Source of the DNA: Scytonema sp. UIC 10036
Lineage (GTDB): Bacteria > Cyanobacteriota > Cyanobacteriia > Cyanobacteriales > Nostocaceae
Direction: 5' to 3'
Assembly: GCF_009725235.1 (NCBI RefSeq)
Contig: NZ_WJFC01000015.1
Span: 1-64,000 of the forward strand
Length of the DNA: 64,000 nt
Shown: positions 47,296 through 64,000 of the stretch, piece by piece
How the letters are laid out: every line of letters begins with the position of its first letter
Position numbering within the stretch: position 1 is the first letter of the stretch
Translations under genes and position numbers: made by a program
Notes under the pieces: generated by a model
What the model was told of the DNA's origin: nothing
Databases searched by the model: none
Seen by the model: the letters and a program-made list of their open reading frames with translations, nothing else

Positions 47296-49983
47296 ATGAG
47301 TGACATACCAGACTCAAACTATGAATATCAAGTTGGGGGAAGTTTACCGTTTAATGCTCCCACCTATGTGACACGGCAGGCAGATGATGAATTATTCAAC
47401 AAGTTGAAAGCAGGAGAATTCTGCTATGTTCTAAACTCGCGACAAATGGGTAAATCGAGCTTGCGGGTAAGAACTATGCAAAGGTTGCAGGCAGAGGAGA
47501 TTGCTTGTGCTGGAATTGATATTACCGCAATCGGTACTCAGGGTGTTACCCCTGACCAATGGTATGCAGGTGTAATTGAACTTTTGGCTACGAGTCTAAA
47601 ACTTGATAAATTTAACATGGATATCTGGTGGAAAAATCAAAAATTGCTACCTCCAGTACAGCGATTGAGTAAATTTATTGAAGAGGAACTGCTAAGTTCT
47701 ATTTATAAAAAGATCGTCATTTTTGTAGATGAAATTGATAGTGTTCTCAGTCTAACTTTTTCGACTGAGGATTTTTTTGCCTTGATTCGATTCTGTTATA
47801 ACCAACGTGCTGAGAAGCCAGAATATAAACGCCTCACATTTTGTCTTTTAGGAGTAGCAACTCCCTCTGATTTGATTCAAGACAAACAGCGCACACCATT
47901 TAATATTGGTCAAGCTATTGAACTCAAAGGGTTCAGTGAAAATGAAGCCAAGTCTTTGGCTCAGGGATTAGATGGTAAAGTTAGCGAGCCGCAAAAGAAG
48001 CTGAAGGAGGTTTTGGAATGGACTGGTGGTCAACCCTTTCTAAGTCAAAAGCTTTGCAAACTCATCCTAGATGATAAACAGAGATTGTCTGTAGAGAAAT
48101 TAGTGCGATCGGGTGTTATTGAAAATTGGCAATCTCAGGACGATCCGGAGCATTTGAGGACAATCAGTAATCGAATTTTAATCAATAAGCATGCAGAACG
48201 GTTGTTAAGGCTATATCAGCAAATTTTACAAAAGAAAGAAATTGGAGAAGATAACAGTCCGGAGCAAATGGAGTTGCGACTGTCAGGTTTGGTAGTTAAG
48301 CAAAATGGCAAGTTAAGAGTTTATAACCGCATTTATGAGTCTGTTTTTGACCATAACTGGATTAATCAGACGTTAGCTAATTTACGACCTTACACTAAGG
48401 AACTTGCAGCCTGGTTAAATTCCAATAGTCAGGATAAATCACATCTATTGCGTGGACAGAAATTACGAGAAGCTCAAAAATGGCAAAAAGGTAAAGAATT
48501 ACTTGTTCAAGATTATCAATTTTTAAATGCTAGCCAAGAATTGGCAACACGAAAGCAGCAACGTTTGCTCTCAGTGCTTACTCCAATACTACTACTACTA
48601 ATTCCAGTACTAGGGTGGCTCTATTGGTCTTCATTTGTTACCAATCAATCACCTCCTCAACCACCAAGACAGGAACCATTAGAACCGCAACAGTCAATAT
48701 CAGCATTTTTTAGCCAAGGTGAGCATACTCTCTTTAGTGGAAATGAAAACGTAAATCGTGAACGCGGTTCTGAAGCTTTCAGAAAAAAAGATTATAAACA
48801 AGCTGTTAAGTATTTTCAAAGCGCTATAGAAGCCTTTCCTTACGATCCAGAGTTACAAATTTTTTACAACAATGCCAAAGCACATGAAAAAGGAAATCCA
48901 GTCACTCTGGCAATTGTCTTACCTATAGCTACTAGAAGAGAAATTTCTCAAGAACTCTTGCGAGGAGTTGCACAGGCACAAGATGGTTTCAACAGTTCGG
49001 ATGCAGAAAACACTCGATTGTTAAATATTGTAATTGCCGATGATAAGAATGAGCCAACTCAATCTCAAAAAATTGCTCAAAAACTCGCTAAAGACCAAAA
49101 GGTTCTAGGAGTTATTGGACACTACACTAGCACAAATAGTCAAGCTGCACTACCTGAGTATGAAAAAGCTGGTCTAGCTATGATTGCTCAAAGCACAAGT
49201 ACTTCACTAAGTGGGCTAAAGAATAAAGTCTTTTTTAGAGCAGTACCTTCTGATAAAGAAATGGCTACAAAATTAGCTGATTATGCTAACCAAAAGGGCT
49301 ATCAAAAAGTGATTATTTTCTATAATCAAGGTGATATTTATAGTCAGAGCTTAAAGAAAGAGTTTGAACAATCATTTAAAGGCAGAGGTGGAAAAGTTGT
49401 AGAAAATATAGATTTGGCTCTTCCTACACTCAATACTTCTAACAAAGACTTTTTCAGTACTTATCTGAATAAAGCAGATGGAGTTGTTTTGTTTCCGAAA
49501 ACACAATCCATTTCCGTGGCGCTTGAAATTGCTCGCGCTCAATTAAAAAACCTAGGAAGCAAGAAGTTGCCTCTATTAGGTGGAGATGCTTTGTACGATC
49601 CAGAGATTTTGAAGTCAGGCAGAGAAGCTGTTGAAGATTTAGTTCTCGCTATACCCTGGTTTGCAGAAGCAGAAAACTCAAAAAAATTTGCAGGTCAAGC
49701 TAGGGACAAATGGGGAGGACAAATTAGCTGGCGCACCGCAGCTACTTATGATGCAACTCAAGCTTTTATTCAAGCTTTATCTATGTCCAAATCCAGCAAT
49801 CTATCTCGCCAGACTGTCTTGAAAAATCTTAAATCTCTTAAAATTTCACAGCAGGACACTGCAGGATATCCACTCCAGTTCGATCAAGAAGGTGAGCGCA
49901 AACAAGAACCTGCTCTTGTCAAAGTAGTGAGAGGTAGTGGTGGTCCCCAGGAAAGTGGATTTAAATTTGAACACGTTAAGTAG
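47296..49983 (+). CDS. AAA_35 ATPase fused to membrane-anchored periplasmic-binding receptor
   Basis: 895 residues. The N-terminal AAA-like ATPase has P-loop SRQMGKSSL (about 48-56) and Walker B IVIFVDEIDSV (about 140-150), followed by a winged-helix region. A single transmembrane helix at about 424-445 (LLSVLTPILLLLIPVLGWLYW) is followed by a Pro-rich spacer, a TPR-like helix pair (about 490-535, FRKKDYKQAVKYFQSAIEAF), and a type-1 periplasmic-binding (Peripla_BP_6, branched-chain amino-acid receptor-like) domain from NPVTLAIVLPI to the C-terminus. The layout implies outside ligand sensing and inside ATPase switching. It begins at the base after the protease stop codon. Confidence 0.87.
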   Translation: MSDIPDSNYEYQVGGSLPFNAPTYVTRQADDELFNKLKAGEFCYVLNSRQMGKSSLRVRTMQRLQAEEIACAGIDITAIGTQGVTPDQWYAGVIELLATSLKLDKFNMDIWWKNQKLLPPVQRLSKFIEEELLSSIYKKIVIFVDEIDSVLSLTFSTEDFFALIRFCYNQRAEKPEYKRLTFCLLGVATPSDLIQDKQRTPFNIGQAIELKGFSENEAKSLAQGLDGKVSEPQKKLKEVLEWTGGQPFLSQKLCKLILDDKQRLSVEKLVRSGVIENWQSQDDPEHLRTISNRILINKHAERLLRLYQQILQKKEIGEDNSPEQMELRLSGLVVKQNGKLRVYNRIYESVFDHNWINQTLANLRPYTKELAAWLNSNSQDKSHLLRGQKLREAQKWQKGKELLVQDYQFLNASQELATRKQQRLLSVLTPILLLLIPVLGWLYWSSFVTNQSPPQPPRQEPLEPQQSISAFFSQGEHTLFSGNENVNRERGSEAFRKKDYKQAVKYFQSAIEAFPYDPELQIFYNNAKAHEKGNPVTLAIVLPIATRREISQELLRGVAQAQDGFNSSDAENTRLLNIVIADDKNEPTQSQKIAQKLAKDQKVLGVIGHYTSTNSQAALPEYEKAGLAMIAQSTSTSLSGLKNKVFFRAVPSDKEMATKLADYANQKGYQKVIIFYNQGDIYSQSLKKEFEQSFKGRGGKVVENIDLALPTLNTSNKDFFSTYLNKADGVVLFPKTQSISVALEIARAQLKNLGSKKLPLLGGDALYDPEILKSGREAVEDLVLAIPWFAEAENSKKFAGQARDKWGGQISWRTAATYDATQAFIQALSMSKSSNLSRQTVLKNLKSLKISQQDTAGYPLQFDQEGERKQEPALVKVVRGSGGPQESGFKFEHVK

Positions 49984-50249: not shown

Positions 50250-51965
50250 TTAAAACAAAAAGTATCTTTGCGCCATTGGCAAAACCGTTGCTGGTTCGCA
50301 TATCAATAATTCGCCATCCGCCCTGACTTCATAGGTTTCTGGATCGACCTCAATACTCGGTAACGCATCATTTAATTTCATATCTCGCTTACTCAACTGG
50401 CGCGTCCCGGAAACAGCAACGACTTGCTTTTTCAAACCCAACTGACTCTTAATCTCCCTGTCTAGCGCGACTTGAGAAACAAACGTGAAAGACGTAGCGT
50501 GACGCGCACCAGCGAAACTGCCAAACATGGGACGCATATGCACTGGTTGAGGAGTGGGAATACTAGCATTCGCATCGCCCATTTGCGCCCATGCGATCGC
50601 ACCTCCTTTCACAACTATCTCTGGCTTCACCCCAAAAAACGCCGGACGCCACAAACACAGATCGGCTAGCTTTCCCTCTTCCACCGACCCCACATATTGA
50701 GCAATACCGTGAGTTATTGCCGGATTAATAGTATACTTAGCAACATATCTTTTCGCTCGGAAATTATCGGCTCTTTGTCCTTCAGCACTTTGATTGAGTT
50801 CTCCTCGTTGTACCTTCATCTTATGGGCGGTTTGCCATGTACGAATAATCACCTCTCCTACCCGTCCCATGGCTTGGGAATCAGAGGAAATCATGCTAAA
50901 TGCGCCCAAGTCGTGCAGAATATCCTCAGCAGCAATAGTTTCTCGACGAATGCGGGATTCAGCAAACGCCACATCCTCAGCAATTGCGGGATCGAGGTGA
51001 TGGCAAACCATCAGCATATCAAGGTGTTCGTCCAAAGTATTGACAGTGTAAGGACGTGTGGGATTGGTAGAAGATGGTAGGACATTGGCTTCCCCACACA
51101 CTTTGATGATGTCTGGCGCGTGTCCCCCTCCAGCGCCTTCAGTATGATAAGTGTGGATAACACGATTCTTAAAAGCAGCGATAGTATCTTCCACAAATCC
51201 TGCTTCGTTTAGGGTATCGGTATGAATCGCAACCTGTACGTCATACTCATCAGCTACACTAAGACAAGTATCAATTGCTGCGGGAGTCGTTCCCCAATCT
51301 TCATGCAATTTTAAAGCGATCGCACCCGCTTCCACTTGTTCTACCAATCCTTGAGGTTGGCTGGCATTCCCTTTACCCAAAAACCCCAAATTCACTGGAA
51401 AAGCATCAGCAGCTTGCAGCATTCGATACATATTCCAAGGTCCTGGGGTGCAAGTCGTTGCGTTTGTACCCGTAGCGGGACCAGTTCCACCACCTATCAT
51501 TGTAGTGATACCGGATGCGATCGCAACTTCAATCTGTTGGGGACAAATAAAATGAATATGGGTGTCAATCCCCCCCGCCGTGAGAATCATACCTTCCCCA
51601 GCCAGTGCTTCCGTTCCAGGACCAATAATAATATCTACATTATCTTGAATATAAGGATTTCCAGCTTTACCAATTTTAAATATCTTGCCATCTTTAATAC
51701 CGATATCCGCCTTGACAATTCCCCACCAATCAAGAATCAAAGCATTTGTAATCACTAAATCCACTGCACCATCAGCATTAGAAATAGGTGATTGTCCCAT
51801 CCCATCACGAATAACTTTACCGCCACCAAACTTGACTTCATCGCCATAAGTTGTTAAGTCTTGTTCGACTTCGATCAGTAATTCCGTATCAGCCAGTCGG
51901 ATGCGATCGCCCACTGTCGGACCAAAAGTTTCTGCATAGGCGCGACGATCCATTCTGTAACTCAT
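50250..51965 (-). CDS. ureC: Urease alpha subunit
   Basis: 571 residues from ATG 51965; the frame upstream (to 52004) is not needed. Nickel and active-site residues are all in place: [10 protein letters not shown], the carbamylated Lys in [34 protein letters not shown], the flap MVCHHLDP and Asp in SSDSQAMGR. It hydrolyses urea to ammonia and carbamate. Last gene of ureD-ureA-ureB-ureC on the minus strand. The accessory genes ureE, ureF and ureG are not in the window. Confidence 0.97.
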
Positions 51966-52029
51966 TGTTAAGTCCTCAAAATATGAAACCGCAGATGAAC
52001 GCACCCTCGACGCTCATGGAAGAGAGTTT

Positions 52030-52341
52030 TTACGTATTAAGCGCTCCGTTAACTTTGGCGTTAAACCCATAGACTTGACGGCTACCCACTAAAGGAACTA
52101 GCGAAACCTCTTTATCATCACCCGGTTCAAAACGAACAGCTGTTCCTGCAGGAATATCAAGACGCATTCCCCGTGCTTGTTCCCTATCAAAACTCAACGC
52201 AGCATTCACTTCATAAAAATGGAAATGAGAACCAACTTGTATCGGTCTATCACCTATATTAGACACCCGCAATAGTACAGTAGGACGACCCACATTCAAC
52301 TCAATTTCCCCTTCTCCTACAATAACTTCCCCTGGAATCAT
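52030..52341 (-). CDS. ureB: Urease beta subunit
   Basis: 103 residues. Typical Ure[17 protein letters not shown] at the start, then [17 protein letters not shown] and [10 protein letters not shown]. Separate small beta and gamma subunits are the usual bacterial plan. It is 64 bp upstream of ureC and separated from ureA by a gap filled with a 26-bp repeat. Confidence 0.97.
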
Positions 52342-52346
52342 ACCTT

Positions 52347-52372
52347 CTTAGCGCCTTTGCGTCTTTGCGTGA
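52347..52372. repeat. 26-bp repeat CACGCAAAGACGCAAAGGCG family, copy 1
   Basis: It fills the 34-bp ureA-ureB gap. An exact inverted copy lies at 54335-54360, on the other side of ureD and the methyltransferase gene. Confidence 0.85.
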
Positions 52373-52375
52373 TAC

Positions 52376-52678
52376 TTATCTTATCGGACTATGCACAGTC
52401 ACCAACTTTGTCCCATCAGGAAAAGTTGCTTCCACCTGTACATCATGAATCATTTCTGGTACACCTTCCATCACATCATCCTGTGATAACAGAGTTGTAC
52501 CATAACTCATTAATTCTGCCACTGTTTGCCCATCCCTTGCACCCTCCAAAATAGCAGCAGAAATATAGGCGACGGCTTCCGGATAATTCAACTTCAACCC
52601 CCTAGCCTTACGCCTTTCCGCTAACAGCGCCGCCGTAAAAATTAATAACTTATCCTTTTCCTGCGGTGTCAGTTGCAT
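52376..52678 (-). CDS. ureA: Urease gamma subunit
   Basis: 100 residues, starting [23 protein letters not shown] and containing [24 protein letters not shown] and [33 protein letters not shown] UreA sequence. It assembles with UreB and UreC into the apo-urease trimer. It lies 12 bp downstream of ureD. Confidence 0.97.
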
Positions 52679-52690
52679 CCCCTACCTCTC

Positions 52691-53587
52691 TTATACAAAC
52701 CAAACTCTTGGTACACAACCACCACGAGCCAACACAGATCGACGCAGCAATTGCCACACAGCCGTAAACCAGTTTCTCACCTCCGTTGTTCCAGAACCAC
52801 GGTATCGACACAATAATCCACATGGGAGACGAGTTACACCAGCTGAGGGAGTAGGGGATAAGAAAAGAGTACGTGCTTTTTGTACCAATTCTTGTGAAAC
52901 TTCTTGCCCAATGTACACCAAACTACCAGTCACTGGTTGCCCTGCCAATCCATGGGGACTGTGAAAAACTTCTTCACTCCCCGGTAACCATTGTCTGTCA
53001 ATCCATAAAGGAACTCCCTGCTGCCAAACTTCTGTATGCGATCGCCACTCTCCAATGCAAAACTTTTCCCCCCTAGCACTCCTTCCAAACCGCGTAATTT
53101 CCCAGCCTATCCAGTTCGCTGCCGTAGATAATTCTACCCGCAAATCTTGTCGATATATTGCACCGTTAAAAACGATTGTTTCTTGAGGGAGCCACTCCAA
53201 ACAAGCACCTGCATCCACTTGAATATCAATATTTTGTCTTGCTTGTGCGCCGTTACTTCGATAAATTTTACTGGCTGCTGCTGTTGTGATGAGTGCTTGG
53301 GCGCTTGGTTGGAGATGGACTTTGCAAAAGAGGCGATCGCCACCCACAACACCCCCAGCTGTATGTAAAATTACACTATGACAAATTTCTTGTCCTTCTG
53401 GATAAAAGGGGCGCTGCACCTTAAGTGGTGCTATATTTTGATTGTGAATGAGTGTTGTTCTACCTTGGCGTTGAGCATACACCAAGTCTAGTTCGCCATG
53501 CCATCCATTTACAGATCGTGTCGTGGTTGAATAATTAGGTTGATTCACGAATGGTTTATACTTTTTTTGCCAAGATAATATAATCAT
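52691..53587 (-). CDS. ureD: Urease accessory protein UreD (UreH)
   Basis: 298 residues. Family features are NGWHGELDLVYAQRQGRTTL, VILHTAGGVVGGDRL, the AASKIYRS segment and ECLEWLPQETIVF-type sequence. UreD is the scaffold for nickel insertion into urease with UreF and UreG. The ORF start at 53587 overlaps the upstream methyltransferase-like gene by 32 bp; a GTG at 53548 would remove the overlap and still keep the conserved domain. Confidence 0.93.
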   Translation of the reverse strand: MIILSWQKKYKPFVNQPNYSTTTRSVNGWHGELDLVYAQRQGRTTLIHNQNIAPLKVQRPFYPEGQEICHSVILHTAGGVVGGDRLFCKVHLQPSAQALITTAAASKIYRSNGAQARQNIDIQVDAGACLEWLPQETIVFNGAIYRQDLRVELSTAANWIGWEITRFGRSARGEKFCIGEWRSHTEVWQQGVPLWIDRQWLPGSEEVFHSPHGLAGQPVTGSLVYIGQEVSQELVQKARTLFLSPTPSAGVTRLPCGLLCRYRGSGTTEVRNWFTAVWQLLRRSVLARGGCVPRVWFV

Positions 53588-54296
53588 CTAATACATAATT
53601 TGACTCATACTTCTGACCCAAATACTGCTGAAGTAGTGAAGTCATGTGCATTTGTTTGGGTAATTTTTCTTTAGCGTGTTTTATAAACTCCACACCTCCC
53701 AAAGGAGTTCTCAACTCGGTTGATGTTAAATACTTATACCACACTAACTCTAAACCCAGCTCCTCTATAAATTTTTTGACCACGCTTTTTTCTTGTTCGT
53801 GGTCTTCACTTCGTTTTGTTTGGTAAGCTTTAAATAACTTTTTATCTTGAATAATTAAAATTGCATAACCTTCGGGCTTTAAACTATGAGAAATTATTTT
53901 ATTATAGATAATTTTCGCTTGAGTATTTTTTTCAATATCGCTAAAAAAACAATGAGAAATGACTGTAAAATCAAAAAAATCTTGCGGTATATTGCTCGAT
54001 GAAGCATTCCAAGTTAAGAGGTCATCTGTTACAAAACGGAAGTAGGCATTCACTGGAGTTTTTCGAGATTCTATATATCGTCTCCAAAACTGTAGCCCTC
54101 GAAATTGGAAGGTATCTTGTTTCTCTAAAGAGTAATAAGATATATGCATTTTTGGAATTTGAAAGAACCCGCTTGTACTTTGGAGAAACAAGGCTAGACC
54201 ATAAGCGACAGTTGCGGGACCTGCTGCAACATCTAGGATTTTCATGTTAGTTGGTAGTAAACTAGCCTGGTATACAAAATACCTTGGTTTCGGCAT
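53556..54296 (-). CDS. SAM-dependent methyltransferase-like protein
   Basis: 246 residues. Motif I is KILDVAAGPATVAYGLALFL, beginning only 19 residues from the start, so the N-terminus is short or truncated. Later segments FFDFTVISHCFF (motif IV-like) and LKPEGYAILIIQDKK (motif VI-like) fit a Rossmann methyltransferase. Substrate unknown. It overlaps ureD at its 3' end and may be co-transcribed with the urease genes, although such a gene is not a usual urease partner. Confidence 0.65.
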   Translation of the reverse strand: MPKPRYFVYQASLLPTNMKILDVAAGPATVAYGLALFLQSTSGFFQIPKMHISYYSLEKQDTFQFRGLQFWRRYIESRKTPVNAYFRFVTDDLLTWNASSSNIPQDFFDFTVISHCFFSDIEKNTQAKIIYNKIISHSLKPEGYAILIIQDKKLFKAYQTKRSEDHEQEKSVVKKFIEELGLELVWYKYLTSTELRTPLGGVEFIKHAKEKLPKQMHMTSLLQQYLGQKYESNYVLDDYIILAKKV

Positions 54297-54334
54297 TTGT
54301 AGACCTGCTATGATGTATTAATTTAATGATAAGC

Positions 54335-54360
54335 TCACGCAAAGACGCAAAGGCGCTAAG
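54335..54360. repeat. 26-bp repeat CACGCAAAGACGCAAAGGCG family, copy 2
   Basis: Exact inverse of 52347-52372. It directly precedes the aminotransferase relic. Confidence 0.85.
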
Positions 54361-54390
54361 ATTGAGTATGTTCTGCTTGTTCTTCAGTCA

Positions 54391-54531
54391 CCTTTTTCTC
54401 TCGAGCATTTTTATGCTTCATCTACGGTTAAAGCAGGCTTGATTTTTGGATATGGTGCTATTGAGGTTGACGAAATTAATGTAGGGTTGGATGTGTTGAG
54501 AAAAATTTTTCCAAAAAATGAAAAAATATAA
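54391..54531 (+). pseudogene. C-terminal relic of a PLP-dependent aminotransferase (MocR/GntR type)
   Basis: 46 codons plus stop, reading PFSLEHFYASSTVKAGLIFG then GAIEVDEINVGLDVLRKIF. This is the typical C-terminal end of MocR-type or class I/II aminotransferase-like regulators (KAGLIFGYGAIE). The rest of the gene is gone, cut off by the 26-bp repeat just upstream. The remaining bases between 54297 and 54650 show no gene. Confidence 0.55.
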
Positions 54532-54650
54532 TGAACCGTACCAGGCGCAAAGGATGCTGAGGGAGAAGGGAGAAGAGTGCGATCGCAATTAATTGTTCAA
54601 TAATAAGAATTTATTATCTAGCACAACTTCTATAGATACTGCACTCTCCT

Positions 54651-55037
54651 CTACACTGAACTACTTATTTGTTCATTTGTTATTACCTGCAAAGCCAAAG
54701 ATGCAGCCTCCACAACATTTGCCCATTTAGAAGAATTGATATACTCTTCGTCTGACATTTCTGTTCCATGCACCTCAAAAACTTGCTCTATAGCAGTGCA
54801 AACTGCTGCAATCAAACGAGCTTCTTTTTCGTTTTCAAGTATTACTCCAATTGCTGCATTTGTGTTTTCTGCCAAAATCGTATCATCAAAGAGAAAATGT
54901 ACTGCTTCATCAAAGCTATCATAAAGAACTCCTGCTGGATAATTATGGTTAATCCAGGCTTTCTGTTGGTATTCCCTACTTGCTAAATTGCGAAGAGTTT
55001 CTAATAATTTTTCTCTCATCTTAGGATATTGCACCAT
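54651..55037 (-). CDS. Small soluble protein, possibly SCO4402-like
   Basis: 128 residues, MVQYPKMREKLLETLRNLASREYQQKAW at the N-terminus (positions 1-28), followed by an acidic, mostly helical domain (FDEAVHFLFDDTILAE, EARLIAAVCTAIEQVFE, WANVVEAASLALQVI). It resembles a family annotated as SCO4402-like, sometimes found as an orphan or immunity-type protein, but I am not sure. No operon partner. It is read divergently from the large receptor/kinase operon. Confidence 0.55.
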   Translation of the reverse strand: MVQYPKMREKLLETLRNLASREYQQKAWINHNYPAGVLYDSFDEAVHFLFDDTILAENTNAAIGVILENEKEARLIAAVCTAIEQVFEVHGTEMSDEEYINSSKWANVVEAASLALQVITNEQISSSV

Positions 55038-55501
55038 AAAAAATCTCCTATTCTACGGTTCATACCAGGTTTTCCATTGTAGCCATTCATCAAGGGGAAT
55101 ATGCGCTTCTGTAGGATTAGTATTGTTGGGTTTTGTTCCTCAACCCAACCTACACAATACTTAAATTATTCTTAGGAATTCCATATATATCTAAATATAT
55201 CTTAATCTAAATTTTGTATAATTCTCAATGAGTGGATTTAAACTGTTTTCAGTAAATCTACATAAAATTTTTAATACTTGAAAAATCTAATTGCGGTATA
55301 CTGTTTGTGAAGCATTGAAAAACATACTTTGCAGCTACAATTCACTAAATTGGCTCGTCAGGGCTAAAGGTTGAAGTGTTTGCACAGTAAGGCTTTTTTT
55401 GTCTGGTCTTAGATTTTCAGTCAAAGGTCAGGGAAGAAGTTTGTGTGACTTTTATTCCTACATTTAGATAATAACAAGAGCTTATACGGAGACGGGAAAA
55501 A
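55038..55501. other. Promoter region of the receptor/tubulin/kinase operon, with a repeat
   Basis: It contains the second GTAGGTTGGGTTGAGG copy in inverse orientation (55124-55155), then AT-rich DNA (ATATATCTAAATATATC) and a leader ending in GGAGACGGGAAAAA just before the GTG at 55502. No gene is seen. Confidence 0.5.
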
Positions 55502-57130
55502 GTGGCTTCCCAAAATAGCTGGTTGTGCGATGGGGTACCAAAAGATGGAAAAGATTATCCATATTGTTCTGGTCCTCACGCATCCCATATGAATTACAGC
55601 CCTAATTGTGAGATTTGCGGCTTACCTCAAGAGGCACACAAACTAACAGTCAAACCATTGAGTTTTGGCAAGAAATCTGCACCGCTAGTAGCAATGTTAG
55701 TTGGTGCTATGACATTGGTAGTGGTAGCAGCAGGATTTGGACTATACAAACTTTATCAAATACGTCAGGATGGTGATGAGTCTTCTGTGGCGAGTAGTCC
55801 TACTAGCGCACCATCGTCTGCTACAACAACACCTACCGATCCACTGGCAATTGCTAGCGTAACAGCTGCTAATGCACCATTGCTCAGTCAAGGTGAAAAA
55901 ATATTGTTACCAAATCCGAATAATCAATTCAAAAATTCTGGGGCTACTGCTTTTGCGGCAAAGAATTGGGATGAAGCTATAGCACAGTACGAACAGGCTG
56001 CAATTGCTGATGCAAACGATCCTGAAGCTAAAATTTACCTCAACAACGCTAAAGCTAAAAAAGCCGGGAATCCCTTGACTATGGCAGTAGGCGTTCCTAT
56101 CACTATGAATGCGAATGCTGCTAAAGAAGTGCTGCGTGGTGTTGCTTTGGCTCAAGAGCAGTTCAATCAGGCTCCCAAGCAACCAGAACGTTTGTTAGAA
56201 GTCGTTATTGTCAACGAAGAACCGGCTCAAGCAGCTTCTTTGGCTCAAGATTTAATCAAATATCCCAATGTCTTGGGTGTTTTAGGGCAAGGTATCAACA
56301 ACGATAGTCGGCAGGCGATCGCTCTCTACGAACAGGCAGAATTGGCAGTTCTTTCGCCTATCAGCACTAGCTTCATTTCTGGTAGCAACGGACAATCTAC
56401 TCTCAAAACGATTCCTATTGCCCAAAAAGCTAAAGAACTGCTCACAACATATTTACAATCCTCAGCGCAAACAATTGCCAAGTATGCTAGTAAGAAACAA
56501 CCCCCAACAGTAGCAGTTTTTTACAACTCAGATAGTCCTTACAGCCAACAATTAAAAGACCAATTTGCTACAAGTTTAACGCAAGTTCAAGGCAAAGTTG
56601 TGCAAGAAATAGATATCAACAATCCTAACTTTAATCCGGTAACCGAGCTTGGTAATGCTAATAAAGCAGGCGCAAAGATAGTTTTCTTAGCGCTGAGTAA
56701 AACTAAAGTTGAGCAAGCAGTGGCGATCGCCAAAGCGAATACATCTCGCCAACCGTTAACTCTACTTGCTAGTGACGATCTTTATACTCCCACTCTACTG
56801 ATTGACGGTGGTGATGCAATTGAAGGTATCGTGTTGGGTGTTCCTTGGAGTTTCCAATCAAACGATCCTTTTGCCAAGGAAGCTGCTGAAATTTGGAAAG
56901 GACGAGTCAGTTGGCGTACCGCTACTGCTTATGATGCTACTGTTGCTCTAGGAAATGCTTTTACCCAAAACCCGACTCGCTTGGGTGTGACTCAGTTATT
57001 TAAAAGCGGCATCAACGTACCATCGGGAACAGCAACTAATTTTAATATATTTCAGGAAGTGCCTTTAGTACAAGCAGTAAAAGGTAAAAATGGTCCTTCA
57101 GGTTCTCAATATCAGTTCGAGCGTATTTAG
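55502..57130 (+). CDS. Zn-ribbon, membrane-anchored periplasmic-binding-type receptor
   Basis: 542 residues. The N-terminal cytoplasmic mini-domain has four cysteines (9, 22, 36, 39) and is probably a zinc ribbon. One transmembrane helix follows (about 61-83), then a Ser/Thr/Pro-rich linker, a TPR-like pair (FAAKNWDEAIAQYEQAAIA) and a type-1 periplasmic-binding domain (from NPLTMAVGVPI). The outer half is homologous to that of the AAA receptor at 47296-49983: compare YNNAKAHEKGNPVT with LNNAKAKKAGNPLT. It is a likely ligand sensor with no catalytic domain of its own. First gene of the four-gene operon; GTG start. Confidence 0.82.
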   Translation: MASQNSWLCDGVPKDGKDYPYCSGPHASHMNYSPNCEICGLPQEAHKLTVKPLSFGKKSAPLVAMLVGAMTLVVVAAGFGLYKLYQIRQDGDESSVASSPTSAPSSATTTPTDPLAIASVTAANAPLLSQGEKILLPNPNNQFKNSGATAFAAKNWDEAIAQYEQAAIADANDPEAKIYLNNAKAKKAGNPLTMAVGVPITMNANAAKEVLRGVALAQEQFNQAPKQPERLLEVVIVNEEPAQAASLAQDLIKYPNVLGVLGQGINNDSRQAIALYEQAELAVLSPISTSFISGSNGQSTLKTIPIAQKAKELLTTYLQSSAQTIAKYASKKQPPTVAVFYNSDSPYSQQLKDQFATSLTQVQGKVVQEIDINNPNFNPVTELGNANKAGAKIVFLALSKTKVEQAVAIAKANTSRQPLTLLASDDLYTPTLLIDGGDAIEGIVLGVPWSFQSNDPFAKEAAEIWKGRVSWRTATAYDATVALGNAFTQNPTRLGVTQLFKSGINVPSGTATNFNIFQEVPLVQAVKGKNGPSGSQYQFERI

Positions 57131-57150
57131 AAGTTATTTTGAGGTGTCCT

Positions 57151-58047
57151 GTGGTTCGTTCTCGTCGCCCACTTTGGCGGTATCCACTGTTTCAAATTCC
57201 GTTAATGTTGCTGTGTGCGTGTTTACTCATAGCAGCACTATTTGGAATTTTAGGACTGGGTAAACCAAAAGTAGCTGTAGCGATCGCACTTGATTTGAGC
57301 AACAGCACCTATAACGGTATATTCAATGCTGCTGGAACTGTTATGGCGCAAGAAGTTGCTGCTGTTAAATCATATTTACAGCACAATGACCAATTTCTCC
57401 AAGAACCAAACCAAATTCAAATCTTTGGCTTTGGTGGAGTCGTACAACCACTTACAAATAGTTTTCAAACTGACAGTAAGCGCGTTGAAACAGAGTTAGA
57501 GCAGGCATTAAAAATCCCAGATTTACCGATACGAATTGTTTCCAATACAACAGATATTAATTTGGCAATTCAGCAAACAACAACTGCTTTAAATAATATT
57601 CAAGAACGCTGCCGTGAATTACTACTAGTGACTGACGGGGAAGCATCAGTTTCTCCAAGCGTTATTGCTGAAGCAAGACAACGGCGAGTGAAAATAAATG
57701 CTGTCGTTATAGGAGCAGAAGCACCTGAAATTAGATTGGCAGCATTTAGCACTCGTGGCATTTATCTTTCTAGTGAAGCCAGTCATTTAGAATCGCTGTT
57801 TACTAATAGGTTTTTTCTCCAATTCAATAGTAACTGGAAATGGATTTTTTTCTGGTTAGGCAGTGCATGGATTGCTTTGATGTGGACATTAATTTTGCCA
57901 TTAGAACGCTGGATTTTTAAGGGTTTGATGAAATTTGAAATGAGTCTTGCTGGTAAGTTGGCAATTGGCAATGCCTTATTTTGGACAGTAGCAACACTAG
58001 GAATCATTTGGCGTTTGTCCGGCTTACCGTTCTTGTCCTATTGTTAA
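57151..58047 (+). CDS. vWA-domain membrane protein
   Basis: 298 residues from GTG 57151, chosen because GAGGTG lies 5-10 nt upstream and overlaps the alternative TTG at 57139. TM helix near the N-terminus (about 16-36), then a von Willebrand A domain with MIDAS residues DLSNS (about 48-52), a Thr in NTTDIN and VTDGEAS, and two C-terminal TM helices (about 230-290). The vWA part faces the periplasm or cytosol depending on topology; a metal-dependent protein-binding role is expected. Stop of the receptor gene is 20 bp upstream; the tubulin-like gene starts 15 bp downstream. Confidence 0.82.
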   Translation: MVRSRRPLWRYPLFQIPLMLLCACLLIAALFGILGLGKPKVAVAIALDLSNSTYNGIFNAAGTVMAQEVAAVKSYLQHNDQFLQEPNQIQIFGFGGVVQPLTNSFQTDSKRVETELEQALKIPDLPIRIVSNTTDINLAIQQTTTALNNIQERCRELLLVTDGEASVSPSVIAEARQRRVKINAVVIGAEAPEIRLAAFSTRGIYLSSEASHLESLFTNRFFLQFNSNWKWIFFWLGSAWIALMWTLILPLERWIFKGLMKFEMSLAGKLAIGNALFWTVATLGIIWRLSGLPFLSYC

Positions 58048-58062
58048 AAAAAGGAAAATTAC

Positions 58063-61000
58063 ATGGTTGCACAGTTCGCACAAATAGAAGAAAAAAGCAT
58101 GGTGCCCACTATCTTGGTAGGAGTTGGTGGTACAGGAGCAGAAGTGCTATCTCGAGTCCGCCGCCTAGTAGAAGAAACTTACGGCAGTTTAAAGAATTTT
58201 CCTATTCTTAGTTTTCTGATTGTTGATACAGATAAAGACTACAAAGTTACCAATCCTTTAGCTGCTGGTTCGCCCTTTAAAGATAACGAAAAATACTGGG
58301 CGAGTGTCAGCGGTGCTCAAGTGCGGGATATGGTAGCAAATATGAGCAATTACCCATGGATTGACTCTTGGTTTCCTAGAGAATTAGATCGCAATATTAC
58401 TGCTTTGGAACAAGGTGCAGGACAAATTCGTGCTTGCGGTAGATTTGCCTTTTTTTGTAACTATCATGGTATCCAAAAGAAGTTTAGAGAAGCCTGTAGT
58501 CGCATCAAAGGCAGAGAAAATTTCATGCTAGATAAGCATGGTGTCAAGGTAAACACCAACGGTATCAACGTGTTTGTCACTGGTTCGCTTTCCGGGGGAA
58601 CTGGTAGCGGTATGTTGGTGGACATCGGTTATGCTATTCGCCAGTGGTTAAGGGGTGAAGCTAGCCCGCAAATCACTGCAATTGTACCTATGCCCAATGC
58701 CTTTGCTGGAATTAATGTAGGCGATCGCATCTTAGCAAACGGCTACGCAGCGCTCATGGAATTGAGCTATTTTTCCGACTACAGAACGGAATATGTCGCT
58801 AACTACAGTGCTGGAACAACCGACGAAATTCGCAGCACTTTACCACCTTTTGATTTTACCTACTTAGTAGGAACTAAAAATGGTGAAAGCGATTTTAAAC
58901 TAGATCAAGTCCGGGAAATGATTGCCCAAAATATCTTTCTAGATTTGACAAGTGATTTTGCACCACATAAACGCTCGATTAGAGATAATATTAAAGGCGC
59001 TTGGGCAGCTCAAGATCCAGGTGGTAGAGGTTATCCTAAAAACTTCATGAGTTTTGGCTTATCCACCATAGAAATTCCCATCTCTCAGATTCGGACTTCC
59101 CTGGCAAATCGATTGGCAACTCACTTAGTCAGTTGGTGGTTAAATGAAGCTGTGATGTTACCGCCACAAATGCGAGATTTTGTGACTGGCATTCTTAAAG
59201 GAATGCGCTTGACAGAAGTAGAATTAATAATTGACTTGTCGGCGGCGAATGACCGTTCCCATATTGCAGTTATTTCTGAATGGGTGAATAGTATTCGTAA
59301 TGAAATTAGTACAGAAAACAAATTACAATGTACCCAGCAGGGATTGAATATAGTTGGCTCCGAGCGCGGGAAAATTTTACAATTTGTAGATAATTATCTT
59401 AAGCCTAAAGTTGATGAGTATCGAGCCAATCACCTACGAGAAATGGGGACTGATGAGCGAGTTCATGGCGACTTTTTTCAAAGAATGTATGACAACCGCA
59501 ATCGCATTATTTTATCTGGGAGGAAAGCGTTAGAAAATGAATTATACCGGATTTTGACAGACCGCACTCAGGGACCAAAATTCGCTGATGCCTTTATTGT
59601 GATATCGCGTCAGATTTTTGACGATACAACAGAAAAATTCCGCAATCAAGTGGAAAAAATTTGGCAGCACAATGAAACCATCCGTCAAACACAGTATGAA
59701 AAAGCTTTGCAGGATATTACTCACTTCAAAGACCAATTTGGGATTTCTAAACAAGCTCAAATGGAGGAGTATTGCGAATCAGCTTTGACTGGTTTGGAGG
59801 GGAGTTTAGTCGCTACAATTCAACGAAAAGCAAGAACTTTGGGGTTAGAAGTTATAGCCCGTTTGCAAGAACATTTAAGCGAATTAGAGCGGCGGTTAGC
59901 TAGTTTGAATCAAAGACTCATTCAAACCCGCGATTATTTCAAAGATAAAGCTGATGCTCAAGCCAACAGTGCTGATGCTTTGGAAATTAATGGCATTAAA
60001 TTATACGATCGCCAAGAGCTAAATGACTTGTATAAAGATTTAATTGAACAGCAAGCTGGTGCTAGCGAAGGTAGCAAAACTCGTTATGAAATTGGCATGG
60101 ATGGAATTTGTAGCACCATGTCGGCAGATATTTTGCAACAAGCTAGTCCTTTGTGGAAAGAAGTTCGTGCTGCTGATGAAATAATGCTGTTATTTGATTT
60201 GCCCAACTTGCCCGATGTGTTGGAGGAAGATTTTAGAGGTATCATTGTAGAAATTACGCAGAAAGTTGTAGAAAAAGCTCCTGAGAGTAGTAAATTAAAA
60301 CGCGAGTTGGCGGCGTGCGATCGACTTTTCAAAATTTTCAACGATGAAGGCGAAATTATCAACAACATTCGGATCGCATATCAAAAGTCTAAGCCACTCA
60401 TTGTGCTATCTAATGCTGTTCTTAGAAGCAATACGGCTAACTTTACTCCCGCACTTAACACCAAAGTTGCTCTCTTAGGAGGACGCAACACTAGCAACCC
60501 CGCTGCTAGAAAATTCCTACCCTATTTACAAGAATTTGTAGGGAGTGATGATTCAATTACACCGTTAGGAGAACCAGAACGTCATCGCATAGTATTTGTT
60601 CAAGAAACAGGAGGGTTTTCTCTCCGGTGTATTGAGGGAATGTCAGAATTGCGGAAATCTTATCAAGACTGGAAAGGGGAAATAATTATTGCAAAACGAG
60701 CGCAATTGCGGGGAGAAAGCCGCGATTTACCGATACCCGTACACACTGAAAAAGAAACGTCATTTTGGGATGTGTTTCCCGAAGATCCTAATGTGTTTAA
60801 GTTGATTGTACAGGCTAGGGCGCTAGATGTTTTGCGTCTAGAAGAAAATCGCGCCATCAGAGAAAAAGCAATTCGTTACACCCGTCGTACTGCTATCGGT
60901 TTAGAAAACGTTGATATTGCTTCGAGTTGGGAAGAAGCTTCTCAAGTACTAGAAGTTTTAGCCTGTCGCGGCGATCGCGAAGAAATCCAGCGCCAAGTGA

Positions 61001-61362
61001 CAGAAAAAATCAGTGCTGCTGAAACAGAAAAAGGTAAGGAGTTGTTATTTAACAAACTGACAACCTATCTGGAACACCGCGCTATTGAATTAGAAAAACA
61101 AGGAGGTAAAGATAGCCTCAATTACAAGCGTGAAGCAGCGATCGTTCTGGACATTATTAACACTTATAAACTCAAAACAGAGATTGAAGAAACTCCTCAA
61201 CCAATAGTAGCCGCTCCCTCTGTTCCGTTAGTACCTCCACCTGTGAAAACAGTTAATACTTCGCCGCAAAATCACGTTTTCTGCATTAACTGCGGTACCA
61301 AAAATCCCACTCACTCCAAGTTTTGTTTTAACTGCGGCACACAACTTGTGCAACTTGGCTAA
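58063..61362 (+). CDS. Large tubulin/FtsZ-like GTPase with C-terminal zinc ribbon
   Basis: 1099 residues. N-terminal ILVGVGGTGAEVL (17-29) and the tubulin signature loop GSLSGGTGSGM (174-184) place it in the Tubulin_2/FtsZ-like 1 family (PF13809-type), which is predicted to bind GTP and has been linked to membrane remodelling with vWA partners. The middle 400-900 is a long mostly helical region with coiled-coil stretches (RLQEHLSELERRLASLNQRL). The C-terminus is a C4 zinc ribbon (Cys1074, 1077, 1088, 1091) after a Pro-rich linker. ATG preceded by AAAAAAAGGAAAA. Third gene of the operon. Confidence 0.85.
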   Translation: MVAQFAQIEEKSMVPTILVGVGGTGAEVLSRVRRLVEETYGSLKNFPILSFLIVDTDKDYKVTNPLAAGSPFKDNEKYWASVSGAQVRDMVANMSNYPWIDSWFPRELDRNITALEQGAGQIRACGRFAFFCNYHGIQKKFREACSRIKGRENFMLDKHGVKVNTNGINVFVTGSLSGGTGSGMLVDIGYAIRQWLRGEASPQITAIVPMPNAFAGINVGDRILANGYAALMELSYFSDYRTEYVANYSAGTTDEIRSTLPPFDFTYLVGTKNGESDFKLDQVREMIAQNIFLDLTSDFAPHKRSIRDNIKGAWAAQDPGGRGYPKNFMSFGLSTIEIPISQIRTSLANRLATHLVSWWLNEAVMLPPQMRDFVTGILKGMRLTEVELIIDLSAANDRSHIAVISEWVNSIRNEISTENKLQCTQQGLNIVGSERGKILQFVDNYLKPKVDEYRANHLREMGTDERVHGDFFQRMYDNRNRIILSGRKALENELYRILTDRTQGPKFADAFIVISRQIFDDTTEKFRNQVEKIWQHNETIRQTQYEKALQDITHFKDQFGISKQAQMEEYCESALTGLEGSLVATIQRKARTLGLEVIARLQEHLSELERRLASLNQRLIQTRDYFKDKADAQANSADALEINGIKLYDRQELNDLYKDLIEQQAGASEGSKTRYEIGMDGICSTMSADILQQASPLWKEVRAADEIMLLFDLPNLPDVLEEDFRGIIVEITQKVVEKAPESSKLKRELAACDRLFKIFNDEGEIINNIRIAYQKSKPLIVLSNAVLRSNTANFTPALNTKVALLGGRNTSNPAARKFLPYLQEFVGSDDSITPLGEPERHRIVFVQETGGFSLRCIEGMSELRKSYQDWKGEIIIAKRAQLRGESRDLPIPVHTEKETSFWDVFPEDPNVFKLIVQARALDVLRLEENRAIREKAIRYTRRTAIGLENVDIASSWEEASQVLEVLACRGDREEIQRQVTEKISAAETEKGKELLFNKLTTYLEHRAIELEKQGGKDSLNYKREAAIVLDIINTYKLKTEIEETPQPIVAAPSVPLVPPPVKTVNTSPQNHVFCINCGTKNPTHSKFCFNCGTQLVQLG

Positions 61363-61390
61363 ATTTGTCACATATGATAAAATACTCAAA

Positions 61391-61450
61391 AAATTCCCTC
61401 ATTCCCTCCCTACTCCCCACTCCCTACTCCCTACTCCCTACTCCCTTCTT
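61391..61450. repeat. STRR, unit CTCCCTA
   Basis: About eight heptamers (CCCTACT family) between the tubulin-like and kinase genes. Read in frame they would extend the kinase N-terminus with a TPHSLLPTPYSLL peptide. Confidence 0.85.
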
Positions 61451-61468
61451 CAAAATAGGTTGCCGATT

Positions 61469-63406
61469 GTGATATTAGAAGAGATACCCCTTGGAACTTT
61501 GGTGAATGGCTGCTACCGCATTCAAAAAGTTCTTGGCAATGGCGGATTTGGACGTACTTATCAGGCAGCTAACGTACATCAGCATAACAAACTTTGCGTA
61601 CTCAAAGAGTTTCTACCCAATGGCAGCAACCAAGGGGTTTTGGTAAAGTGCAAGGAATTATTCCAGCGTGAGGCAGAAACTTTATACAAATTGAACCATC
61701 CTCAAATTCCTAAATTCCTAGCTACGTTTGAGGAAGATGGACGCCAGTTTATTGTACAGGAATATGTGGATGGAAAAAACTACTGGACTTTGCTTCAAGA
61801 ACGGCAAAGGTTTACAGAAACAGAAGTGACTCAATTTCTGTACGCGATATTACCAGTTATTGACTACATACACCAGCAGCAGATATTTCACCGCGATATT
61901 TCGCCAGATAACATCATATTGCTCAAAGACAAAGATTTACCAGTACTCATCGACTTTGGTGTCGCCAAGCAAACAATCACTCTGATTCATTCCACTAGTG
62001 TTTATGGTTTGAGTTCCTCCGGAGGTGCTACTCTTGTTGGGAAAGTAGGGTATGCGCCACAAGAACAAATCCGAGGCGGTCAGTGTTCCCCCAGCAGTGA
62101 CCTCTATGCATTGGGTGTCACTGCTATTGTTCTTTTGACAGGCAAAGACCCTAACTCTTTGTATGATAACGATAATCTAGAGTGGCAGTGGCAATCTTAT
62201 GTGAATGTGAGTGAGCAATTGGCTTGGGTCATTAACAAAATGCTGGCTCACAAACCCAGAGAACGCTATCAATCAGCAAGTGCAGTCTTAGCAGATCTGC
62301 AATCTTCGTCTACTACAACTCTCTTAACAGCATCTCAGCTAGAAGGGACTCCAGCAACAACAGAAATTTCATCAAGCAATAATGTTGTCACAGAAATTTC
62401 AATAGGCGTGTTAAAGAACTCTCAACCAGTTAATCCCCCACCTATCAAACGTTTACCAATATATTCTCTGGTTGGAATCGCAATCTTGCTCCTAGGAGGT
62501 GTAGGTGTTGCAGTTCAGTCACCCCAAATCGCAGGTGTTTGTGGAGTGCTAAATAACTGTGCCAAAGATAAGGAATATGAGACTGTTTATAATACAGCAG
62601 TTCAACAAGCAGCAACGGCGCAAAATTTTTCCGTAATTGCTAAAAGTGTTTCGGAGTTAGAGGATAGCCGCGTTCGTCTGCAAAACGCAATAAATCAACT
62701 CCAGACAATTCCACAAAATGCGAAAATTTACCCGAAAATACAGCAAGCCTTGACAAACAATAAATTACAACTAGCTGGAATTGACAAACGCTTGCAGGAG
62801 GAAACCAAAGCGCAGCAATTGTTGGATGAGGGAGAGAAAATTGCTACTGATGCAACAACGAAAACGAAAGAAGCTGGTTATAGTGTGGCTTTATTAGAGG
62901 AAGCTAAAGCTTTATGGGAGAACGCGCAAAAGAAAATGGATGCGGTACCAGGAAATTCTGTTGTTGCACAAAAAGCAGCGACGCGATCGCAAGAATATAA
63001 AGGAAAAGCAAACAATATTAGCGCTCGCATTGATGAAATAGCTGCGGCTCAACAACGGGAAGCACAACGTCAAGCAAAACAACGCCGCCAGGAGCAAGTC
63101 TTACAAGTCACTGAAAATTATCCCACCAGTAACAATTCTCAACCGAGTTACGTACCAAAGCGGCGGCGCATACAGCAGCCAGTGTCTCAAGTGACTGAAA
63201 ATACTAGCAATAATTCTCAACAAATATATAAACTAAGGCGGCGCATTAGACCCCAGCCAGCTTCACAGGTGACTGACAGAGCCACGAGGAACAATTCTCA
63301 AAGAACGTATAAACCAGAGCGGCGACGCGGTAGTGATTCCTCTGCGCCACTCTGGGGAAAACCTAATTCTGGAAGCGACGGTGGTTCGTCAGACCCTTTG
63401 TTTTAA
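61469..63406 (+). CDS. Membrane-bound Ser/Thr protein kinase
   Basis: 645 residues from GTG 61469, chosen because it follows TAGG by 9 nt and avoids the STRR-encoded extension. Hanks-type kinase domain with Gly loop LGNGGFGRTY, Lys46 in CVLKEF, HRD loop FHRDISPDN (Asp143), DFG (Asp162) and GYAPQEQ (activation segment). A TM helix is at about 328-350, then a coiled coil (about 370-560) and a basic tail of three imperfect repeats, each about V-T-E-N...NNSQ...Y-K/V...R-R-R. The extracytoplasmic part has no known ligand domain. Last gene of the four-gene operon; it probably transmits the receptor or tubulin state by phosphorylation. Confidence 0.85.
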   Translation: MILEEIPLGTLVNGCYRIQKVLGNGGFGRTYQAANVHQHNKLCVLKEFLPNGSNQGVLVKCKELFQREAETLYKLNHPQIPKFLATFEEDGRQFIVQEYVDGKNYWTLLQERQRFTETEVTQFLYAILPVIDYIHQQQIFHRDISPDNIILLKDKDLPVLIDFGVAKQTITLIHSTSVYGLSSSGGATLVGKVGYAPQEQIRGGQCSPSSDLYALGVTAIVLLTGKDPNSLYDNDNLEWQWQSYVNVSEQLAWVINKMLAHKPRERYQSASAVLADLQSSSTTTLLTASQLEGTPATTEISSSNNVVTEISIGVLKNSQPVNPPPIKRLPIYSLVGIAILLLGGVGVAVQSPQIAGVCGVLNNCAKDKEYETVYNTAVQQAATAQNFSVIAKSVSELEDSRVRLQNAINQLQTIPQNAKIYPKIQQALTNNKLQLAGIDKRLQEETKAQQLLDEGEKIATDATTKTKEAGYSVALLEEAKALWENAQKKMDAVPGNSVVAQKAATRSQEYKGKANNISARIDEIAAAQQREAQRQAKQRRQEQVLQVTENYPTSNNSQPSYVPKRRRIQQPVSQVTENTSNNSQQIYKLRRRIRPQPASQVTDRATRNNSQRTYKPERRRGSDSSAPLWGKPNSGSDGGSSDPLF

Positions 63407-63423
63407 AATATGCAACAAAAATT

Positions 63424-64000
63424 TTAAAATGGGATACGGAAGGCGCGACCGCCTGTTGTGGCTTCCCGAATAACGAGAATAAGATTTTGTGGACCGGGGT
63501 CTTTCCAACGCTGTCCTATGACTAATAATTGTCCTTTCAGTGTACCTTGAGGTGAAATGACACCTTTTTCTGCTGATTTCAACACCAGGCGTGCTTTTAC
63601 AGGCTTTCCGTTGCTATCTTCCACTTTGACAGAGACTGGTACGAACCCAAAACTGCGATCGCTATTGTTTTGAATCATCAAATTTGCTGTATAGGAACCG
63701 CTGTTTTGGACAGTAGCTCCGTCAATCTGAATCACCACATTATTTAAAGTCTGTGTAGCAGCTAAAGCGACATTACCAACTGTGCGTCGATTATTGGTAG
63801 TGGGTTTTTGAACTGGCGCTCCAGAATCTCGTTGACTGCTTGAAGTTCCTGAGGCTGGTTGACTGGGTGCTGATGCAATTGGCTGTTGAGGTTGCTCAGC
63901 CACAGGTTGAGTTTGCCTCAAATTGGTGCAACTAGGATTAAAGCTATAAGCGTCTTTCCACCGTTTGACTGTCTTTTCTCCAATCGGAAATATGAAACTC
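63424..64000 (-). CDS. Secreted-type beta-sandwich protein (5' end outside window)
   Basis: The frame is open to the right edge and continues past the ORF start at 63921 (residues TVKRWKDAYSFNPSCTN precede). Visible part: a Pro/Gln/Ser-rich linker (QPVAEQPQQPIASAPSQPASG), then a beta-rich domain (NNVVIQIDGATVQNSGSYTANLMIQNN, VPVSVKVEDSNGKPV, GTLKGQLLVIGQRW) resembling Ig-like or FxLYD-type folds. Function unknown. It converges on the kinase gene with a 17-bp gap and may be unrelated to that operon. Confidence 0.6.
   Translation of the reverse strand, partial: SFIFPIGEKTVKRWKDAYSFNPSCTNLRQTQPVAEQPQQPIASAPSQPASGTSSSQRDSGAPVQKPTTNNRRTVGNVALAATQTLNNVVIQIDGATVQNSGSYTANLMIQNNSDRSFGFVPVSVKVEDSNGKPVKARLVLKSAEKGVISPQGTLKGQLLVIGQRWKDPGPQNLILVIREATTGGRAFRIPF

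Follow-up and report, generated by a model that had tools for sequence, protein, structure and literature searches.

A conserved receptor-vWA-tubulin gene unit in Scytonema sp. UIC 10036, a candidate transmembrane signalling cassette with an FtsZl1 GTPase as its possible output

We analyzed a 64,000-nucleotide stretch of the Scytonema sp. UIC 10036 genome (contig NZ_WJFC01000015.1, positions 1 to 64,000 of the forward strand; hereafter the window) and found that four consecutive plus-strand genes include a conserved unit of three, encoding a membrane-anchored receptor, a vWA protein and a tubulin-like GTPase of the FtsZl1 (Tubulin_2) family. We present its gene order, co-inheritance and domains together with a predicted fold and a predicted topology. 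The receptor gene (55502..57130; GTG start at 55502, stop at 57130), the vWA gene (57151..58047; GTG start at 57151), the tubulin gene (58063..61362; ATG start at 58063, stop at 61362; product of 1099 residues) and a Ser/Thr kinase gene (61469..63406; GTG start at 61469) are separated by 20, 15 and 106 bp when the GTG starts are taken for receptor, vWA and kinase. The open reading frames (ORFs) of the vWA protein and the kinase mechanically extend to TTG codons at 57139 and 61346, respectively. We placed the receptor start at 55502 because homologues bear the same N-terminal ribbon; a database protein matching the receptor (P0121, 513 residues) is 29 residues shorter and fits a start at Met30, which would exclude 55502-55588 and cost the receptor part of its ribbon. 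Pfam assigned Peripla_BP_6 to the receptor (E=1.1e-16, residues 204-494), VWA_2 to the vWA protein (E=2.5e-7), Tubulin_2 (PF13809, E=1.7e-113, residues 17-356 of 1099) and a C-terminal zinc ribbon (E=3.6e-6) to the tubulin, and Pkinase to the kinase (E=2.4e-39). Both the arrangement on one strand, with gaps of 20, 15 and about 106 bp, and the domains had been read in this way in an initial annotation made from the sequence alone. That annotation had also treated all four genes as one unit; by co-occurrence and adjacency the receptor, vWA and tubulin genes are conserved as such and the kinase is optional.

A Tubulin_2 profile search over 291 genomes of the class matched 83, with 77 above the cut-off, and the main survey covered 388 genomes from the order of a close relative. 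The window tubulin had a match at 1e-20 in 191 of these 388 genomes and a close orthologue, here called clade A (at least 54% identity, fragments included, second fragments or copies per genome left out), in 73. The receptor search returned 152 genomes at 1e-60, 59 of them with at least 360 bits; all 59 matches started at residues 2-6 and hence included the ribbon, with those of G472 and G600 cut at the other end. Matches below 360 bits (93 of the 152 genomes) were left out and, among the matches listed, mostly started past the ribbon. The vWA search returned 61 genomes, 53 with at least 220 bits; the eight weaker genomes, also left out, were seven with a tubulin of 38-42% identity and G619, which has a weak tubulin match. 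The bit-score and identity cut-offs were set after the lists had been inspected, and with them 59/59 receptor and 53/53 vWA genomes fell within the 73 clade-A tubulin genomes (Fisher p <1e-48 for co-occurrence, shared ancestry being ignored). All three genes occurred together in 44 genomes. Receptor and vWA genes were adjacent on the same strand in 40 of the 44 (median gap, 66 bp) and lay on different contigs in the other four; vWA and tubulin genes were adjacent on the same strand in 39 of 53 genomes. The proposal of a system had been staked on its orthologues not being scattered, and it survived, since the three genes are neighbours in many genomes. The conserved unit is receptor-vWA-tubulin.

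The tubulin gene was not beside the vWA gene in 14 of the 53 genomes; the receptor was retained in 13 of these 14, and receptor and vWA genes were still adjacent in 11. The separated tubulin lay on another contig in 10 of the 14, where an assembly break is possible in some, and G382 has its receptor-vWA pair 501 kb from the tubulin. Lineages separate on the tree kept the receptor elsewhere (the G382 group, a Microcystis-like group, G570, G001 and G308). In the Microcystis-like group, the tubulin lies by eye between genes resembling rnz and argF, and the vWA search found no vWA gene. We consider this co-retention after separation more telling than the Fisher values. Among tubulins of 38-42% identity, the same three-gene order recurred in at least seven genomes (G335, G389, G479, G502, G517, G557 and G609); G335 holds two full receptor-vWA-tubulin cassettes. 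The contexts of the tubulin were clustered on its tree, with 23 label changes where shuffling gave a mean of 74.6. The locus counts leave out the duplicates L058, L115 and L201 and loci below 53% identity; L004 and tubulins shorter than 850 residues were also left out of the tree. Matches were found in nine of 72,556 plasmid records, one of which spans most of the tubulin at 61% identity. A viral element was considered and dropped, viral contigs having given no pattern match.

The receptor comprises an N-terminal Cys-His-Cys-Cys ribbon, a single transmembrane (TM) helix (residues 62-80), a short TPR-like part and a class I periplasmic binding domain (204-494). The ribbon, which we propose as a coupler, is encoded at 55520..55636 on the plus strand (residues 7-45, with C9, H26, C36 and C39). 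An alignment of 24 sequences (the window and 23 of the listed homologues) had invariant W7, C9, G11, P13, K14, H26, N31, C36, C39, G40, L41, P42, E44 and A45, and Pfam listed no model over the ribbon up to E=1. This invariant Cys-His-Cys-Cys cytoplasmic ribbon without a Pfam model is the new element of the analysis. The ribbon profile matched near the N-terminus of proteins flanking these tubulins, and at 0.001 it found 50 of 243 genomes searched, 44 of which also have a clade-A tubulin. Across loci, the ribbon and the membrane anchor are retained and the outside part is exchanged. Most ribbon proteins carry a Peripla_BP_6-like domain outside; the receptors of L202 and L214 are similar to that of the window but gave no Pfam match to Peripla_BP_6. 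The outside part is PBP_like_2 in L173 (L172 and L206 being alike by eye), Phosphonate-bd with SNase in L008, Ppx-GppA in L065 and PsbP_2 in L215, around which no tubulin locus was noticed. The closest solved folds to the window ectodomain were LivK/LivJ-type binding proteins and mGluR ectodomains. Unlike these proteins, the window receptor is membrane-anchored and has a cytoplasmic ribbon, and no ABC transporter genes were noticed at the locus. ABC permease or ATPase genes were absent from 50250-64000 (Pfam for eight proteins there, the rest by eye), and ABC solute uptake was dropped as an explanation because none was noticed beside the binding protein.

The tubulin carries its GTP-binding loop GGTGSG at residues 178-183 (58594..58611, plus strand), and the motif was present in 139 of 142 tubulin loci. 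Its GTPase domain is followed by a long helical or coiled-coil part (~400-790), a putative second tubulin-like domain (~797-886) and a C-terminal tail; the structure model has helices at 504-556 and 563-643 and further helices. In structure comparison the predicted structure shows a tubulin fold, and the system idea, which was to fail if 58063-61362 lacked that fold, survived. Against solved structures, the best sequence matches to the Tubulin_2 family were at chance level only. The tail ends in Zn_Ribbon_1 (61279..61347, plus strand), which is swapped for SHOCT-like or GYF-like tails in relatives. Counted by rough patterns (SHOCT and GYF tails by Pfam), the C-terminal ribbon was present in 25/38 loci with receptor and vWA, 23/27 solo loci and 0/7 Che-linked loci. 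The suggestion that the receptor and tubulin ribbons dock to one shared partner gained no support, since the tubulin ribbon is exchanged in many loci and occurs with receptor and vWA (25/38) much as without them (23/34, solo and Che-linked loci together). The clade-A tubulin frames of L205 (G550) and L170 (G409) are broken by stop codons, and L204 (G386) has two tandem tubulins behind one vWA.

The vWA protein (57151..58047, plus strand) is predicted to have an N-terminal TM helix, a periplasmic vWA domain and one or more C-terminal TM helices. Its DLSNS sequence (57292..57306, plus strand) bears out the intact DxSxS metal ion-dependent adhesion site (MIDAS) noted earlier, and the pattern was present in 43/43 vWA orthologues of at least 250 residues. 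Topology was predicted from simple hydropathy and positive residues. The latter point to an N-in first helix in 41/43 of these orthologues, and the vWA domain is therefore predicted outside; the receptor ribbon and the kinase domain are predicted inside. The FtsZl1 family, its vWA partner, its kinases and the membrane-remodelling idea come from Makarova and Koonin (2010; PMC2875224), whose alignment legend lists cyanobacterial FtsZl1 members. In that paper, reviewer 1 pointed to a branched-chain binding protein in Arthrospira and a PilA-like neighbour in Thermosynechococcus, proposed transport or signalling, and asked how a cytoplasmic tubulin works with periplasmic vWA proteins; the authors discounted the binding-protein and pilin neighbours as limited to one or few related organisms. 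The function of FtsZl1, a widespread branch of the tubulin superfamily, was thus disputed inside its founding paper. The window resembles those systems in its tubulin family, its vWA protein with an intact MIDAS and a nearby Ser/Thr kinase. It differs from the published scheme in a receptor about as constant as the vWA protein, a conserved ribbon coupler and a TM link. Our counts show that the receptor is not confined to a few organisms. With the vWA domain placed outside the membrane and the tubulin inside it by prediction, the receptor would supply the TM link that the 2010 scheme lacked and so answer the reviewer's question. Searches of the open-access literature gave no paper describing a ribbon receptor together with FtsZl1. 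The ribbon receptor makes the dispute between remodelling and signalling directly testable in genetically tractable cyanobacteria, and its four invariant Cys/His residues name the contact to mutate.

The kinase encoded at 61469..63406 (plus strand) has a cytoplasmic kinase domain, a TM helix and an outside coiled region, and the gap before it contains a run of CCCTACT-like/CTCCCTA-type short tandem repeats (61397-61449). Of the 74 clade-A loci with room for it, counting that of the window, only 10 have a kinase-type ORF directly downstream of the tubulin, and a fixed four-gene operon was rejected on this count. Among 39 loci that have both receptor and vWA, 18 had a kinase at most six genes away, as against 1 of 35 with neither (Fisher 1.1e-5). 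A BLAST match to the window kinase counted whichever part it covered, including that of L178 (outside region only); the single positive among the 35 was L180, a locus with no more than 512 bp of contig upstream. Immediately after the tubulin, L175, L179, L180, L182 and L186 have kinases that share 50-55% identity in the kinase domain, and L183-L185 have such kinases upstream on the opposite strand. The outside coiled region is 33-40% identical in the downstream group (six ORFs, with L178, whose ORF comprises this region only) and 27-30% identical in the divergent kinases of L183-L185; loci beyond these carry less similar kinases. In L176 the ribbon is fused to a kinase-type outside coiled region, and L213 has two ribbon proteins built much like it, by eye. 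Since this region sits on the ribbon rather than on a kinase in L176, the same sensor seems to be carried either by a ribbon protein or by a kinase. The genes past the kinase of L175 (951-5862) encode a COP23-family protein and a trypsin-TPR-Pilin_GH protein (Pfam).

The same design was present in a second tubulin clade, clade B, whose 27 tree rows share ~30-33% identity with the window. Directly downstream of the tubulin, 16 of the 27 rows have a protein longer than 350 residues with a CxxC...CxxC ribbon and a TM helix, at gaps of 0 to 210 bp; among the remaining 11 rows are two whose locus contains no ORF downstream. The binding domain was Peripla_BP_6 or PBP_like_2 in the two proteins scanned. 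Compared with clade A, the gene order is opposite and the ribbon differently built. Clade C, a single branch of 20 tree rows, has the exact order vWA-tubulin-ZorA-like-ZorB-like in 15 of 22 loci; L047, L051, L055 and L068 are examples with tubulin, vWA and a ZorA/ZorB (MotAB)-type stator pair, which the clade of the window lacks. The clade C ZorB-like protein matched MotB/PomB/ZorB structures (best, 4.4e-8). Its TM-entry Asp and GHTD motif were found in 21/21 (the Asp in 13 by a strict pattern and in 8 by a looser [ST]DLM read by eye), and three TM helices were predicted in the eight of 21 ZorA-like proteins listed. Zorya effectors occupy the position taken in clade C by tubulin and vWA. Some of the 'OmpA-like' partners reported in 2010 (PMC2875224) may be stator subunits like these.

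The link to pili and motility comes from relatives, as the window locus (50250-64000) has no CheA, CheW, MCP or pil genes. All seven loci of one branch (L038-L044) have a pilin-length ORF after the clade-A tubulin, and six of the seven have a CheA-length ORF before it, L044 being broken there. Pfam gave the order REC/DUF4388, a 125-residue ORF, CheW, MCP, CheA, tubulin and pilin for L038, in which alone the domains were confirmed; the rest of the branch was read from length and order. The L038 pilin contains Pilin_GH, as does the L175 protein mentioned above. The ribbon receptor gene and pilM are divergent neighbours in G159 and, judged from positions alone, in G457. The Synechocystis Tubulin_2 protein Sll0445 associates with Slr2015/Slr2018, and interruption of sll0445, sll0446 or sll0447 impaired phototaxis (PMC9880817). 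The sll0443-sll0449 unit has a putative CRP site (PMC2633013), and sll0445 is listed at a ratio of 4.6 in a lexA RNA-seq table (PMC4759255) and named among the genes deregulated in a comFB mutant (PMC12313861). Sll0445 is a cyanobacterial Tubulin_2 protein like the window tubulin, but the partners in its cluster have been described as FtsA- and DivIC-like, in contrast to the receptor and vWA partners of the window. By analogy with the neighbours of relatives and with Sll0445, a family member of unplaced clade, a pilus output is a good lead.

Taken together, we consider it an even chance that the cassette is a TM signalling device with FtsZl1 as its cytoplasmic output, likely for control of a surface machine. 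The outside domain of the receptor would bind a small solute or an envelope molecule, and the periplasmic vWA domain, through metal-dependent protein binding, might contact the receptor and join it in sensing the outside state. The single TM helix would relay this state to the invariant ribbon, which could engage the FtsZl1 machinery and alter its assembly or its GTP state. Where a dedicated TM Ser/Thr kinase is present, as in the window and some relatives, it may tune the same device, and type IV pili and motility are the first candidate for the surface machine. The signal-gated device of the initial annotation is, from the conserved unit and the predicted tubulin fold, the best reading; we favour it, yet it is unproven, as is the pilus output. 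More tentatively, and at somewhat less than an even chance, these genes represent a cyanobacterial receptor-tubulin pathway in which a single-pass ribbon coupler with interchangeable sensors gates a tubulin-like GTPase in control of a surface machine such as type IV pili. Two tubulin clades show this design, and a third pairs its tubulin with a MotAB/ZorAB-type ion-driven stator. Such a tubulin would be, to our knowledge, the first in bacteria to be gated directly by an extracytoplasmic receptor.

Several observations weigh against the signalling interpretation. The Fisher values disregard common descent, and neither receptor nor vWA was upstream of the tubulin in 35 of 83 loci, among which six have little upstream sequence and in L205 the broken tubulin pushes genes out of range. 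At L209, the Microcystis-like receptor stands without an adjacent vWA. Six of the 50 ribbon-positive genomes (G159, G322, G424, G436, G444 and G457) have no clade-A tubulin; five have another FtsZl1 match at 1e-20 and G436 has none. Since clade A and clade B receptors have a similar binding domain in many loci, the pairing in the two clades may reflect one ancient event with rearrangement rather than two. In the tubulin, the acidic T7-loop residue after the putative H7 is not conserved, judged by eye, and from its sequence polymer-coupled GTP hydrolysis is unproven. As to the pilus lead, pilM lies 17 kb off in G436 and six more genomes have no pilM near the ribbon receptor. Sll0445 also associates with photosystem proteins (PMC9880817), and its FtsA- and DivIC-like neighbours suggest that it may be a member of the stator-type clade C. 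We found no published experiment on a clade-A gene in the open-access literature.

The initial annotation had mentioned that tubulin-vWA gene pairs are linked to predicted membrane-remodelling systems. In the rival reading that follows Makarova and Koonin (2010), the genes form membrane-remodelling or vesicle machinery, with tubulin filaments on the inner membrane and with vWA and receptor as anchors. Membership of the tubulin in the Tubulin_2 family, the published argument from membrane-associated neighbours (PMC2875224) and the predicted fold, which appears to hold a second tubulin-like domain and would make assembly possible, are consistent with it. Yet a membrane-bending domain was found in none of the small number of clade-A neighbours that were scanned, the partners that recur most constantly are the vWA protein and a receptor of sensor type, and the topology problem raised by reviewer 1 (PMC2875224) applies. 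This idea gained no support beyond the 2010 proposal, the contexts pointing to pili and motility are no weaker, and we regard it as unlikely. Somewhat less likely still is an anti-phage or conflict system in which an envelope sensor triggers the tubulin as effector or scaffold. The ZorA-like and ZorB/MotB-like partners of clade C point in this direction, as do an annotated BrxL two genes from an FtsZl1 relative on a Meiothermus plasmid (L211), two caspase-family genes beside one on an Azospirillum plasmid (L212) and the NACHT, caspase and AAA_35 genes within the window. However, PADLOC had no match for receptor or vWA, its Zor models matched neither these nor the following gene, and the tubulin had only a chance-level ZorA match (E=0.023). 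The kinase had 36 PADLOC matches, as expected for a Ser/Thr kinase; the 25 listed were PD-T4-6, mad6 and MkoA models, with no Zor. The tree-clustered contexts of the tubulin are unlike a mobile defence island, and the negative result with viral contigs also argues against such a system.

Compared with the signalling cassette that we favour, an envelope or peptidoglycan regulator would use the receptor to act on wall synthesis like LpoA, with the tubulin positioning it. The TPR-like segment ahead of the class I binding fold, a layout which we take to resemble LpoA, and the MotB/OmpA-like GHTD motif of clade C partners fit this proposal. The nearest solved folds are of the LivK/LivJ and mGluR types, and the replacement of the ectodomain by other modules in several loci argues for variable sensing; we judge such a regulator improbable. 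Adjacency without common function, the genes sharing a promoter by descent, would account for the many solo tubulins and the usual absence of the kinase but is the least probable reading, given that receptor and vWA are co-retained after tubulin separation and that clade B repeats the ribbon-receptor design with another ribbon and the opposite order, possibly from one origin.

Elsewhere in the window, 45661-49983 encodes a Trypsin_2-AAA_35 protein followed by an AAA_35-Peripla_BP_6 fusion of 895 residues, which ends ~5.5 kb before the operon and places the same kind of binding domain on a different cytoplasmic switch. Long open frames (787-1003 residues) among the receptor matches are possibly similar fusions. 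A NACHT-NCH2 protein and a caspase-domain protein are encoded at 7757-10129 and 36280-38133, respectively. Convergent with the kinase, an ORF on the minus strand (63424-64000) runs out of the window. In L176 its relative forms the C-terminal portion of a 789-residue protein that has a metalloprotease-like HExxH part by eye and is encoded beside the ribbon protein.

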